A stretch of 64,000 bases of DNA from contig NZ_OW824151.1 in NCBI RefSeq assembly GCF_942548115.1, positions 124,001 through 188,000 of the forward strand, read 5' to 3'. Both the position numbers and the translations under genes were made by a program. This document shows positions 4,248 to 50,959 of this stretch, one piece after another. The first letter of the stretch is position 1; each line of letters begins with the position of its first letter. Origin of the DNA: Aeromicrobium sp. Leaf245 (GTDB lineage Bacteria > Actinomycetota > Actinomycetes > Propionibacteriales > Nocardioidaceae). The notes below the pieces were generated by a model, which saw only the letters and a program-made list of their open reading frames with translations, ran no database searches and was not told where the DNA came from.

Positions 4248-4607
4248 ATGACGATGACATTGGATACAGCCGCTGCGACAGCCGAAGAGCCTCTGACCGC
4301 TGCTGCGTGCCTCTTTCACGGGTTCAGTGACCGCTCGCGCCTGGTGATCTTGCAGCACCTGTTGTCCGGCGAGCACCGGGTAGTTGAGCTGACCGAGCAC
4401 CTGGGCCTGGCCCAGTCGACCGTCTCCAAGCACCTTGCTTGCCTGAAGGAGTGCGGTCTTGTCACCTCCCGACCGCAAGGCCGAGCGTCGGTGTTCAGCG
4501 TCACCCACCCAGAAGCGACGACCCAGCTGCTGGCAGCGGCCGAGACGTTGCTGGACCTGACCGGCTTCGCCGTCACCCTGTGCCCGACCTACGGAGTCAA
4601 CCGATGA
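4248..4607 (+). CDS. cmtR: CmtR-like ArsR-family Cd/Pb-sensing repressor
   Basis: This is a 119-residue winged-helix ArsR/SmtB regulator. The recognition helix region reads LGLAQSTVSKHLACLKECGL. Its cysteines C65 and C69 (CLKEC) match CmtR Cys57 and Cys61, and C112 in the C-terminal tail matches Cys102; this triad binds Cd(II) or Pb(II) in mycobacterial CmtR. The alpha-5 zinc site of SmtB is absent. A TATCAT -10-like box at 4236-4241 ends 6 bases before the ATG, suggesting a leaderless transcript. The stop overlaps the start of the first CDF pump as ATGA, so sensor and pump are co-translated. Confidence 0.88.
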   Translation: MTMTLDTAAATAEEPLTAAACLFHGFSDRSRLVILQHLLSGEHRVVELTEHLGLAQSTVSKHLACLKECGLVTSRPQGRASVFSVTHPEATTQLLAAAETLLDLTGFAVTLCPTYGVNR

Positions 4608-47387: not shown

Positions 47388-48845
47388 GTGCACGAGGATC
47401 CGGTCGACGTCCCCGCAGGACCGTCGACGTCCCCGCAGGACGAGGGCCCGCACCCGCAGCGCTGGCGCATCCTCGCCGTCACCCTGGTGGTCGGGTTCAT
47501 GTCGCTGCTCGACGTCACGATCGTCAACGTCGCGATCCCGTCGATCCAGGAGGGTCTCGACACCACGCCGGGCACCGTGCAGTGGGTGGTGTCCGGGTAC
47601 GCGCTCACGTTCGGCCTGACCCTCGTCGCCGGCGGACGGCTCGGCGACGCCTACGGCCGGCGCCGGCTGATGCTCATCGGGCTGGCCGGCTTCGTGGCCT
47701 CGAGCGCGGCGGCAGGTCTCGCGCCCACGGCCGAGCTGGTGGTCGTGGCGCGGCTGCTCCAGGGTGCGTCGGCAGGGTTCCTCACCCCGCAGAGCTCCGG
47801 GCTGATCCAGCAGCTGTTCTCCGGCGCCGAGCGTGGACGGGCGTTCGGGTACTTCGGCCTCACCGTCTCGATCGCCTCGGCCACGGGGCCGCTGCTCGGC
47901 GGGCTCGTGATCGGGCTGGTCGGGGAGGACCTCGGGTGGCGACTCCTGTTCCTCGTCAACGTGCCGATCGGGCTCGTCGCCGCGATCGCCGTCGCGCGCA
48001 TGGTCCCCGGCCGCCAGGCCGACGGCGGGCCCGGGCGCATCGACGTCCCGGGCGCCGTCCTGCTCGGCCTCTCGGTGCTGTGCCTGCTGTACCCGCTGGT
48101 GAGCCTGGAGTCCGGCGCGCGCTGGCCGCTCGTGCTGCTGGTGGGCGTGCCGCTCTTCGGCTGGGCCTTCGGCGCCTGGGAGCACCGCCTCAAGCGGCGC
48201 GGACACGAGCCCCTGCTCGACCTCGACCTGCTGCGCCGGCTTCCCGGCTTCGGCAACGGGATGCTCGTGGGCACGGTCTACTTCACCGGCTTCACGGGTG
48301 TGTTCCTCGTGGCGTCGGTGTGGCTGCAGGGCTCGCGCGACGTCAGCGCCCTGCACGCCGGGCTGCTGCTGACGCCCTTCGCGCTCGGCTCGGCCATCAC
48401 GTCGCCGCTGGCGGGTCGCTTGGTGAGCACGGTCGGACGATCGCTCACGGTCGGCGCTCTCATCGTCATGATGGTCGGCGTGCTGGGGGCCGCCCTGGTG
48501 GCGCCCGGTCGGGCGACCGACGAGCTGTGGTGGGCGCTCGCCCCGTTCCTGCTGCTGGCCGGCCTCGGCGGTGGCGCCGTCGTGTCGCCGAACATCACCC
48601 TCACGCTGCAGGAGGTCCCGCCGCGCATGGGCGGGGCGGCCGGCGGTGCACTGCAGACCGGCCAGCGCATCGGCTCGTCGCTCGGCGCCGCCCTCCTGGC
48701 CACCACCTACCAGGTGGTGGCGGGCGGGTCCGGCGGCGACACCGGCATCCGGGTGGCCCTCTTCGTGGCGCTGGCCGTGCTGGCCCTCGCGCTCGCCGCC
48801 GCCGTCCTCGCGCTGCGCTCGTCGCGGCGCCTCGCCGGCGCCTGA
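47388..48845 (+). CDS. MFS multidrug exporter (DHA2/EmrB-QacA type, 14 segments)
   Basis: The 485-residue transporter carries motif D1 LLDVTIVNVAIPSIQEGLDT, motif A GGRLGDAYGRRRLMLIGLAG, motif B RLLQGASAGFLTPQSSGLIQ and motif C GYFGLTVSIASATGPLLGGL, with about 14 membrane segments. This is the proton-driven DHA2 group, exporting drugs or metabolites. It starts at a GTG 48 bases after upp. A short direct duplication (GTCGACGTCCCCGCAGGACC, near 47402 and 47422) encodes repeated VDVPAG/STSPQD residues at the N-terminus. Confidence 0.9.
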   Translation: MHEDPVDVPAGPSTSPQDEGPHPQRWRILAVTLVVGFMSLLDVTIVNVAIPSIQEGLDTTPGTVQWVVSGYALTFGLTLVAGGRLGDAYGRRRLMLIGLAGFVASSAAAGLAPTAELVVVARLLQGASAGFLTPQSSGLIQQLFSGAERGRAFGYFGLTVSIASATGPLLGGLVIGLVGEDLGWRLLFLVNVPIGLVAAIAVARMVPGRQADGGPGRIDVPGAVLLGLSVLCLLYPLVSLESGARWPLVLLVGVPLFGWAFGAWEHRLKRRGHEPLLDLDLLRRLPGFGNGMLVGTVYFTGFTGVFLVASVWLQGSRDVSALHAGLLLTPFALGSAITSPLAGRLVSTVGRSLTVGALIVMMVGVLGAALVAPGRATDELWWALAPFLLLAGLGGGAVVSPNITLTLQEVPPRMGGAAGGALQTGQRIGSSLGAALLATTYQVVAGGSGGDTGIRVALFVALAVLALALAAAVLALRSSRRLAGA

Positions 48846-48861
48846 GCGCCGCCGTCCAGCG

Positions 48862-49182
48862 TCAGGCGGCGTGCTTGCAGGTGCTGCAGGAGCAGTCGGT
48901 GCACACGCAGTTGGCACAGCTGTCGGAGCAGTGGGCGCACGAGCAGACGTTGTGGTTGCAGGTCTCGCACGTGCAGTCGTCGCACACGCAGGTCGCGCAG
49001 CTGTCCGAGCAGTGGGCGCACGAGCAGGTGGCGCACTCGTCGTAGTGACCCTCGTGCTCACGGTGCACGTGGCCATCGTGCAGGTAGTCGACGTGGTCCT
49101 CGTGCACCACGGCGTCGTGGCCGCAGCCCGGTCCGTGGGTGTGGTCGTGCTTCTCGGCCTCGCGGTGGTCGATGACGGTCAT
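48862..49182 (-). CDS. Cys/His-rich metallothionein-like protein with two tandem Cys repeats
   Basis: The 106-residue product has 20 cysteines and 16 histidines. Residues 1-49 are His/Asp/Glu-rich (HDHTHGPGCGHD, VDYLHDGHVHREHEGHYDE). Residues 50-104 hold 19 cysteines in two 23-residue repeats (53-75 and 80-102) that are identical at 19 positions and keep all ten cysteines in CxC, CxxC and CxxxC spacing. The DNA repeats with an 81-base period. It probably buffers or sequesters Zn, Cd or Cu. It is coupled by ATGA to a SmtB/CzrA-like sensor gene, recalling smtA-smtB. I know no named family with this two-part design. Confidence 0.85.
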   Translation of the reverse strand: MTVIDHREAEKHDHTHGPGCGHDAVVHEDHVDYLHDGHVHREHEGHYDECATCSCAHCSDSCATCVCDDCTCETCNHNVCSCAHCSDSCANCVCTDCSCSTCKHAA

Positions 49183-49490
49183 GGGTGGTTCTCCTGGGTG
49201 TGATGGAAGGCGTCGAGGAGCACGTGAGCCACGTGCTCGTCGGTGAGGGAGTAGACGACCTCGCGGCCGCGCCGCTCGCCGTCGACGAGGTGCGCGGTGC
49301 GCAGGATCCTCAGGTGCTGGGAGACGAGCGGCTGGGACCGCCCGGTCCACGCGACGAGCTCGCCCACGGTCTGCTCCCCCTCGCAGAGCCGGTGCACGAT
49401 GGCGGCGCGCAGCGGTGTCGACATCGCGTCGAACAGCGCAGCGACGGCGTCGTACGCCGCCACGTCACCCCGCTCAGGCATCCGGCTCAC
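49179..49490 (-). CDS. SmtB/CzrA-type zinc-sensing ArsR-family repressor
   Basis: The 103-residue winged-helix repressor has recognition helix region GRSQPLVSQHLRILRTAHLV. In its last helix D84, H86, H97 and E100 have exactly the spacing of the alpha-5 zinc site of CzrA (D84, H86, H97, H100) and SmtB (D104, H106, H117, E120). No alpha-3 cysteine pair is present. Zn(II) binding should release DNA and switch on the coupled metallothionein-like gene. The upstream stretch 49495-49535 contains imperfect CATATG-centred symmetry that could be the operator; this is weak. Confidence 0.9.
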   Translation of the reverse strand: MSRMPERGDVAAYDAVAALFDAMSTPLRAAIVHRLCEGEQTVGELVAWTGRSQPLVSQHLRILRTAHLVDGERRGREVVYSLTDEHVAHVLLDAFHHTQENHP

Positions 49491-49570
49491 TCATGCAGAC
49501 ATGGTCATATGGCAATACCTGCATGTCAACTCGGGAACGAGACCCACCCGCGGGTACGGGTGGGCCTGGC

Positions 49571-50959
49571 TCAGAGAGCGCGCAGGATGTCCTCGACGCG
49601 GTCCTTCGCGTCGCCGAACAGCATCTGGGAGTTCTCGCGGAAGAACAGCGGGTTCTGCACGCCGGCGTAGCCCGCGGCCATCGAGCGCTTGAACACCACG
49701 ACGTTCTTGGCCTCCCAGACGCGCAGCACCGGCATGCCCGCGATGGGGCTCGTCGGGTCCTCGGCCGCGGCCGGGTTCACCGTGTCGTTGGCGCCGATCA
49801 CGAGCACCACGTCGACGTCGGCGAGGTCGTCGTTGACCTCGTCCATCTCGAGCACGATGTCGTAGGGAACCTTGGCCTCCGCCAGCAGCACGTTCATGTG
49901 GCCGGGCAGGCGGCCCGCCACCGGGTGGATGCCGAACTTCACGTCGACGCCGCGCTCGCGCAGCTTGCGGGTCAGGTCGGCCACGGGGTACTGCGCCTGG
50001 GCCACCGCCATGCCGTAGCCCGGCGTGATGACGACGCTCGACGCGTCCTTGAGCATCTCGGCCACGCCGTCGGCGTCGATCTCGCGGTGCTCGCCGTAGT
50101 CCGTGGCGTCGCCGGCGGATGCCTCGATGCCGAAGCCGCCGGCGATCACGGAGATGAACGAGCGGTTCATCGCCTGGCACATGATGTAGCTGAGGTAGGC
50201 GCCGGACGACCCGACGAGGGCGCCGGTGACGATCAGCAGGTTGTTGCTCAGCAGGAAGCCGGCGGCGGCCGCGGCCCAGCCCGAGTAGCTGTTGAGCATC
50301 GACACGACGACCGGCATGTCGCCGCCACCGATGGACGCCACGAGGTGCCAGCCGAGCGCGAGCGCCAGGGCGGTGACCAGGACGAGCAGCCAGATGTTCG
50401 GGTTCGCGACGAACACGACCGTCAGCACGAAGAACAGCACGAGCGCGCCGAGGTTGAGGTAGTTCTTGCCCGGCAGGACGAGGGGCGCGGACTTGATGCG
50501 GGCGCTCAGCTTGAGGAACGCGACGATCGAGCCGGTGAACGTGACCGCACCGATGAAGACGCCGACGAAGACCTCGCCCGAGTGGATCCGCTCCAGCGAC
50601 TCGAGCGGGTACTCGGGGTGCTCGAGGTAGCCGTTCCAGCCCACCAGCACGGCGGCCAGACCGACGAAGGAGTGCAGCAGCGCGATGAGCTCGGGCATGC
50701 CGGTCATCTCGACGACGCGAGCCCGCCAGAGACCGATCGCAGCACCGATGGCCACGGCACCGACGAGCAGGACGATGCCCACGGTCTCGGCGTCCTCGAC
50801 GGCCAGGATGATCGTGGCCACGAGCGCGATGGCCATGCCGGCGATGCCGTAGGCCACGCCCGACGACGCGGTCTCGTGCTTGCTGAGCCCCGCGAGGCTC
50901 AGGATGAACAGCAGGGCGGCGACGATGTACGCCGCGGTGGCGATGCTCTCAGCGGTCAC
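49571..50959 (-). CDS. pntB: NAD(P) transhydrogenase beta subunit
   Basis: The 462-residue membrane subunit has nine or so membrane segments. The NADP-binding domain III follows with [60 protein letters not shown] and NDTVNPAA, all hallmark PntB motifs. It couples proton entry to hydride transfer from NADH to NADP+. The GTG at 50959 has AAGGG 10 bases upstream and follows pntA by 5 bases. Confidence 0.95.

Follow-up and report, generated by a model that had tools for sequence, protein, structure and literature searches.

A two-gene module encodes an ArsR/SmtB-family repressor and a 106-residue His-rich and Cys-repeat protein, and we consider it likely that the pair forms a self-contained zinc-response operon, in which zinc would relieve ArsR and the 106-residue protein would buffer or store zinc. 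The module lies in the window, by which we mean the whole 64,000-nucleotide stretch of DNA analysed, taken from the 3.46-Mb one-contig genome of an actinobacterium. It is real, well conserved and uncatalogued, and its sequence features indicate that it most likely serves zinc. The most telling part of the finding is the link between the His module of the protein and Zur-type zinc import. The sequence-only reading had proposed a metal sensor coupled to a metallothionein-like protein outside known families, which stood, and a recent internal duplication, which did not. Features are listed in Table 1.

Table 1. Features of the module, with positions in the window.
Feature	Position	Strand	Remarks
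TTGACA and 34-bp imperfect palindrome	49492..49529	-	palindrome 49492-49525, 13/17 pairs; likely promoter and ArsR operator
ArsR/SmtB-family repressor gene	49179..49490	-	alpha-5 motif DxHx10Hx2E; GTG start, or ATG at 49481
106-residue His-rich and Cys-repeat protein, CDS with stop	48862..49182	-	
His-rich module	49036..49182	-	residues 1-49; has relatives among stand-alone short proteins, many of which sit in znuACB operons
Cys unit 1	48955..49035	-	residues 50-76: Cx2CxCx2Cx3Cx2CxCx2CxCx2C-N
Cys unit 2	48871..48954	-	residues 77-104: Hx2CxCx2Cx3Cx2CxCx2CxCx2C-x-H

A sensor-type gene overlaps the gene of a Cys- and His-rich protein

Both genes lie on the minus strand and overlap by ATGA, and the operon appears to consist of two genes. 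We recovered the frames and the overlap that had been read as coupling them. A transporter-like frame (named by eye) is convergent to the operon and ends at 48845. Counts of 20 Cys and 16 His in the 106 residues agreed with those given earlier.

We aligned 31 long forms including that of the window, chosen as full-length matches, with same-genome repeats dropped and variant L054 left out. All 20 Cys, H77 and H104 were invariant (31/31), as were 11 His of the His half and some other residues. The Cys pattern was also kept in the four long forms outside the alignment (L130, L131, L136 and L137; 4/4), where Asp replaces Asn76 in L131 and L137 has one extra Cys. The dN/dS of the gene was 0.130, 0.145 and 0.138 against the close relatives L005, L006 and L007, and 0.316 against L009. 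Because Cys and His are kept in all 31 long forms and in four more, and because dN/dS among close relatives is low (0.13-0.145), the 106-residue frame is not a chance frame.

A GTDB genome scan yielded 58 loci. In the phylum sample, 45 of 396 genomes matched the 106-residue protein; the match was full-length in two, both of the window genus, and the others were one one-unit form and, for the remainder, the His half only or nearly so. In the family sample, matches at E <= 0.01 were found in 226/294 genomes, 16 of them full-length long forms. With the Cys half as query, 12 of 345 genomes of the class matched, and all 12 matches were fused to the His module.

The Cys half consists of two units of an old duplication

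Residues 50-102 hold 19 of the 20 Cys. C50, H77 and H104 are spaced 27 residues apart, with a DNA period of 81 bases, and the unit consensus across long forms is [C/H]x2CxCx2Cx3-5Cx2CxCx2CxCx2C-x-H, where the x3 spacer of the window units is x3-5 in relatives. An earlier description as two 23-residue repeats with an 81-base period was right about the 81 bases, whereas the 23 residues are the core (C53-C75 and C80-C102) of a unit of 26-27 residues.

The window units share 61 of 78 bases, and the internal duplication is common to all 31 aligned long forms. Across these 31, a protein's own two units had a non-Cys identity of 0.33 to each other, and same-position units of different proteins had 0.44 and 0.43. 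With near window relatives set aside, the nearest unit in another protein held the same position in 59.4/62 cases. Because the units cluster by position, their duplication is old. The recent internal duplication suggested from the sequence alone was thus rejected, since units group by position across proteins and not within a protein. Within-protein identity was exceptionally high in the window clade (0.59-0.65) and in L057 (0.59), which may reflect later homogenisation. One-unit forms were found in two genomes (L092/L126 and L138), and in the variant L054 the Cys part is shorter and of another kind.

Metallothioneins in the broad sense are small, Cys-rich proteins with CxC and CxxC motifs and no aromatics in the Cys part. 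The 106-residue protein has these sequence features: Cys make up 20 of its 106 residues, and Y33 and Y47, its sole aromatics (F, W and Y counted), both lie outside the Cys part. Relatives L052 and L053 have one Phe each in the Cys part. Judged by its sequence, the protein looks like a metallothionein-like, uncatalogued kind of metal-soaking protein.

We also weighed a role of the Cys units as structural modules similar to zinc fingers, or as redox/Fe-S modules, used for protein contacts or electron transfer and not for metal storage. A PDB search gave weak matches, of which Synaptotagmin-like protein 4, a DUF1610 protein and Ariadne-1 were the best (E 0.18-0.58), and a photosystem I Fe-S centre at a non-significant E of 8-10. 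None of the PDB matches was significant, however, and little beyond the Cys is common to the two units (non-Cys identity 0.33), which is what one would expect if they were a metal scaffold and not a fold. Such a role is very improbable. AlphaFold gave no confident fold for the full protein or the His half (pLDDT 54 and 62).

The repressor carries an alpha-5 metal motif

ArsR matched the winged-helix model PF01022 at 46.5 bits (cut-off 22) and NF033788 at 85.2 bits (cut-off 55). Its alpha-5 metal motif is complete, as had been claimed, with D84, H86, H97 and E100 all present as DxHx10Hx2E, a published alpha-5 signature (PMC8790569). After 6 duplicate loci were dropped, we observed the motif in 32/32 ArsR whose gene precedes a family gene; these adjoin 22 long forms, 2 one-unit or variant forms and 8 His-only or His-His forms. 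It was also encoded upstream of the four long forms outside the alignment (4/4), 140 bases away in L130. Among 13 PF01022 matches in the own genome, one carries the motif, namely this ArsR; all 13 are over cut-off, but several weak ones come from long frames and are perhaps not metal sensors. The window holds a second ArsR-type gene (~4332-4469, plus strand), which is without the motif. BLAST with the window ArsR placed arsR directly upstream in 22 of the 31 long loci and found no adjacent arsR in the other 9.

The cargo might mainly be another soft metal (Cd, Cu(I) or Hg), with ArsR answering to that metal. Thiolate-rich domains generally bind Cd and Cu(I) tightly, which counts for this possibility. 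MymT, a different actinobacterial metallothionein, serves copper (PMC7387436), and the metals reported to be sensed by alpha-5 sites include Cu, Co and Ni besides Zn (PMC8790569), which leaves zinc unproved as the sensed metal. The single Cys of ArsR (C36) is present in only 4/23 ArsR beside long or variant forms, however, so a thiolate Cd/Pb site in ArsR is unlikely. The CmtR model scored 45.8 of 150 bits, far under its cut-off, and the His module has zinc-import genes for neighbours. With these points against it, we regard a cargo made up mainly of another soft metal as quite unlikely.

A recurrent palindrome marks the arsR promoter

The promoter of arsR bears a TTGACA element, joined in many loci by a 34-bp palindrome that ends in the start codon and is probably the ArsR operator. 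The best centre of the palindrome was identical in 13/23 arsR promoters (22 long forms and L054), some of them from near-identical relatives. Pairing reached 16/17 in L015, compared with 13/17 in the window. Taken alone, the palindrome differed from random stretches of the locus (p <= 0.05) in 9/23 long or variant promoters, including that of the window (p 0.025).

With a leave-one-out matrix, the highest-scoring site of the locus fell at the arsR or long-gene promoter, with a score >= 15, in 23/31 long loci, four of which are without adjacent arsR (L011, L041, L046 and L047). The score was below 15 in the other eight (L009, L012, L016, L042, L044, L052, L053 and L057). The variant L054 scored 39, and among other forms 2/50 loci scored above 15, both of them arsR-linked His-His forms (L073 and L079). 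The own genome contains one perfect TTGACATGCA-N22-TGCATG, at the window promoter, and one two-mismatch site elsewhere; a backward control of this spaced pattern in the same genome gave no sites. A generic scan of 48780-49700 for sigma-70 promoters and terminators found nothing. Read by eye at 49479-49494 (minus strand), the window has 13 extra bases that put the ATG apparently used by relatives at the palindrome end (49494) out of frame. The window arsR must start at GTG 49490 or ATG 49481.

The His half is a module of zinc-import operons

The His half is a separate module, which in Nocardioidaceae closes znuACB zinc-import operons. It was also found alone, in short proteins, and as His-His doubles. 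The earlier remark that the His-rich half is like small zinc-associated proteins is borne out, as znuACB operons contain it as a small gene of its own. We observed znuC and znuB directly upstream of the short form in 14/14 loci (L020-L033; names given by eye and carried over by BLAST). Of 8 plasmid records with a match, 3 give the short form the name 'zinc transporter permease', which suggests that it was so labelled because it follows znuB.

For Zur sites we used a matrix built from five published C. glutamicum sites (PMC2823685). It superseded a scan with a consensus, the result of which was thin (10 sites versus 4 in one shuffle). The best Zur-like site of the locus preceded znuA in 7/7 inspected short-form loci (scores 12.8-25.5); these were five of L020-L033 and two other short-form matches of the family sample, extended. 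In L042, L044 and L016 the long form stands behind znu genes, and znu, COG0523 or ZIP genes (names by eye) lie beside several relatives. Zur-like boxes (scores 16-29) were found near the operon in four long loci, before znuA in L042 and near arsR in L014, L019 and L045. They complicate the zinc-derepression reading, as the operon could be expressed at low zinc there.

These arrangements (the short form just behind znuC-znuB, the Zur-like sites before znuA, the long forms behind znu genes and the boxes at four long loci) all favour a zinc-import accessory over a detoxifier. Such a protein would catch zinc from ZnuACB, pass it on or store it, and be needed mainly when zinc is scarce or fluctuating. 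However, the palindrome and the alpha-5 ArsR, in the window and in most relatives, point to release at high metal, and the window promoter (L004) had no Zur-like site scoring 11 or more. The own-genome znuACB does have a Zur-like box, but no His module lies behind it, and it is ~2.4 Mb from the locus of the 106-residue protein (record coordinates). We found no second His module in the own genome, where matches besides the gene itself appeared only at E 0.48 and 2.16. An import accessory is rather unlikely for the window protein.

Several neighbourhoods of relatives were observed in addition. A COG0523-type GTPase gene (by eye) is convergent to the long gene in L005-L007, L034 and L035, ~331-1353 past the gene start. 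It is absent at the corresponding place in the window, and for such a partner the own genome gave four weak PF02492 matches only, three over cut-off (best E 2.8e-5). In L008 and L039 a convergent ZIP-like transporter gene (by eye) lies just past the long gene. In L070 an arsR-short-form pair is followed by a COG0523-like GTPase gene, in front of which stands a strong Zur-like box (score 28.4), 274 bases past the match start. His-His doubles with a variant second copy (L065, L087, L088 and L091, also L108 and L115) occur within the phylum and also on contigs of myxobacterial, acidobacterial and Leptospiraceae origin; those of L065 and L087 have a gene for a CDF-like exporter (by eye) immediately upstream. 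The short His module is also encoded on two faecal contigs recorded as 'Bacteriophage sp.' (MT837699.1 and MT836058.1).

Proposed zinc-response cycle

Under the zinc-response reading that we prefer, apo-ArsR would bind the 34-bp palindrome that covers the arsR promoter and keep transcription low. When cell zinc goes up, the alpha-5 site would fill and ArsR would let go, upon which ArsR and the 106-residue protein would be produced together. The protein would then take up surplus zinc, and probably cadmium too. Its Cys units, which have 19 Cys and 2 His between them and about 9 Cys apiece, may form metal-thiolate clusters, and the His half, the module common to zinc-import operons, may bind zinc faster and more weakly. 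Once zinc was tied up, ArsR would close the promoter again.

We further propose, tentatively and at close to even chances, that the protein represents an undescribed metallothionein family, in which 27-residue, [C/H]-bounded units of nine Cys are joined to a zinc-import His module and control has been re-wired from Zur (low zinc) to an SmtB-type switch (high zinc). If this is true, one His module serves opposite ends of zinc homeostasis.

Few bacterial metallothioneins have been characterised. SmtA and MymT are among those named as such (PMC7387436). The present work adds a well-conserved family that was missed by the profile libraries searched and has its own sensor and an operator-like site. 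The family is a modular series of His, His-His, one-Cys-unit and two-Cys-unit forms. With it, actinobacterial zinc storage, and the division of work between Zur and SmtB-type control, become directly testable.

Comparison with known families and systems

A search against metallothionein profiles, which had been named as a check, returned no family: Pfam and NCBIfam models matched 0 of the 31 long forms at E <= 1, while an SmtA positive control matched PF02069 at 3.9e-21. PF02069 had no match in the own genome at E <= 10, and in the family sample it matched 1/245 genomes at E <= 0.001, 0 over cut-off. Alignment of the Cys half to SmtA with hhalign gave a probability of 0.5% with 1 column aligned. 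Membership of a known metallothionein family was rejected, as the profiles were silent while the SmtA control worked. Because, in addition, the Cys half could not be aligned to SmtA, we conclude that the module would work like smtB-smtA without being a PF02069 member. No description of the 106-residue protein was found in the literature covered (titles and abstract starts, with most subscription journals outside coverage), and none of five His-module peptide motifs matched a paper.

An in-silico survey of actinobacterial metallothioneins and metallohistins was reportedly made by Schmidt in 2010; going by its title, its predicted proteins are likewise small, Cys/His-rich and from the same phylum. 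A possible metallothionein of Frankia, described as having histidines and 3 or 4 CXXC motifs and discussed for chromate resistance (PMC4531530), also mixes Cys motifs with His in an actinobacterium. The suggestion of a new metallothionein class is weakened, since the 2010 survey and the Frankia supplement may include such proteins.

Outside the phylum, His residues and a metallothionein are also combined in a His-rich Pseudomonas metallothionein, reportedly the subject, by title, of work by Habjanic in 2018. Pseudomonas metallothionein operons are said to lack metal-responsive regulators (PMC7387436).

The likeness to smtB-smtA that had been pointed out, and with it the reading as a metal-sensor and metallothionein-like module, is supported. 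As in cyanobacterial smtB-smtA and its relatives (BmtA, BxmR and AzuR), a repressor of the alpha-5 SmtB type goes with a small protein rich in Cys and His, and the promoter has a palindromic operator, a probable one in the module. BxmR and BmtA are described as sharing an operon, and azuR is placed within znuABC (PMC8790569, PMC7387436). Unlike SmtA, the 106-residue protein has another Cys spacing, tandem units and a separate His module. smtB-smtA is a divergon, whereas arsR and the gene of the 106-residue protein are an overlapping same-strand pair. ArsR/SmtB operators are described as a 12-2-12 imperfect inverted repeat, and the recurrent 34-bp palindrome of the module may be of a different layout. 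The short 'zinc transporter permease' proteins share the His module (residues 1-49) with the 106-residue protein but are without Cys units, and many stand behind znuC-znuB, with Zur-like boxes before znuA.
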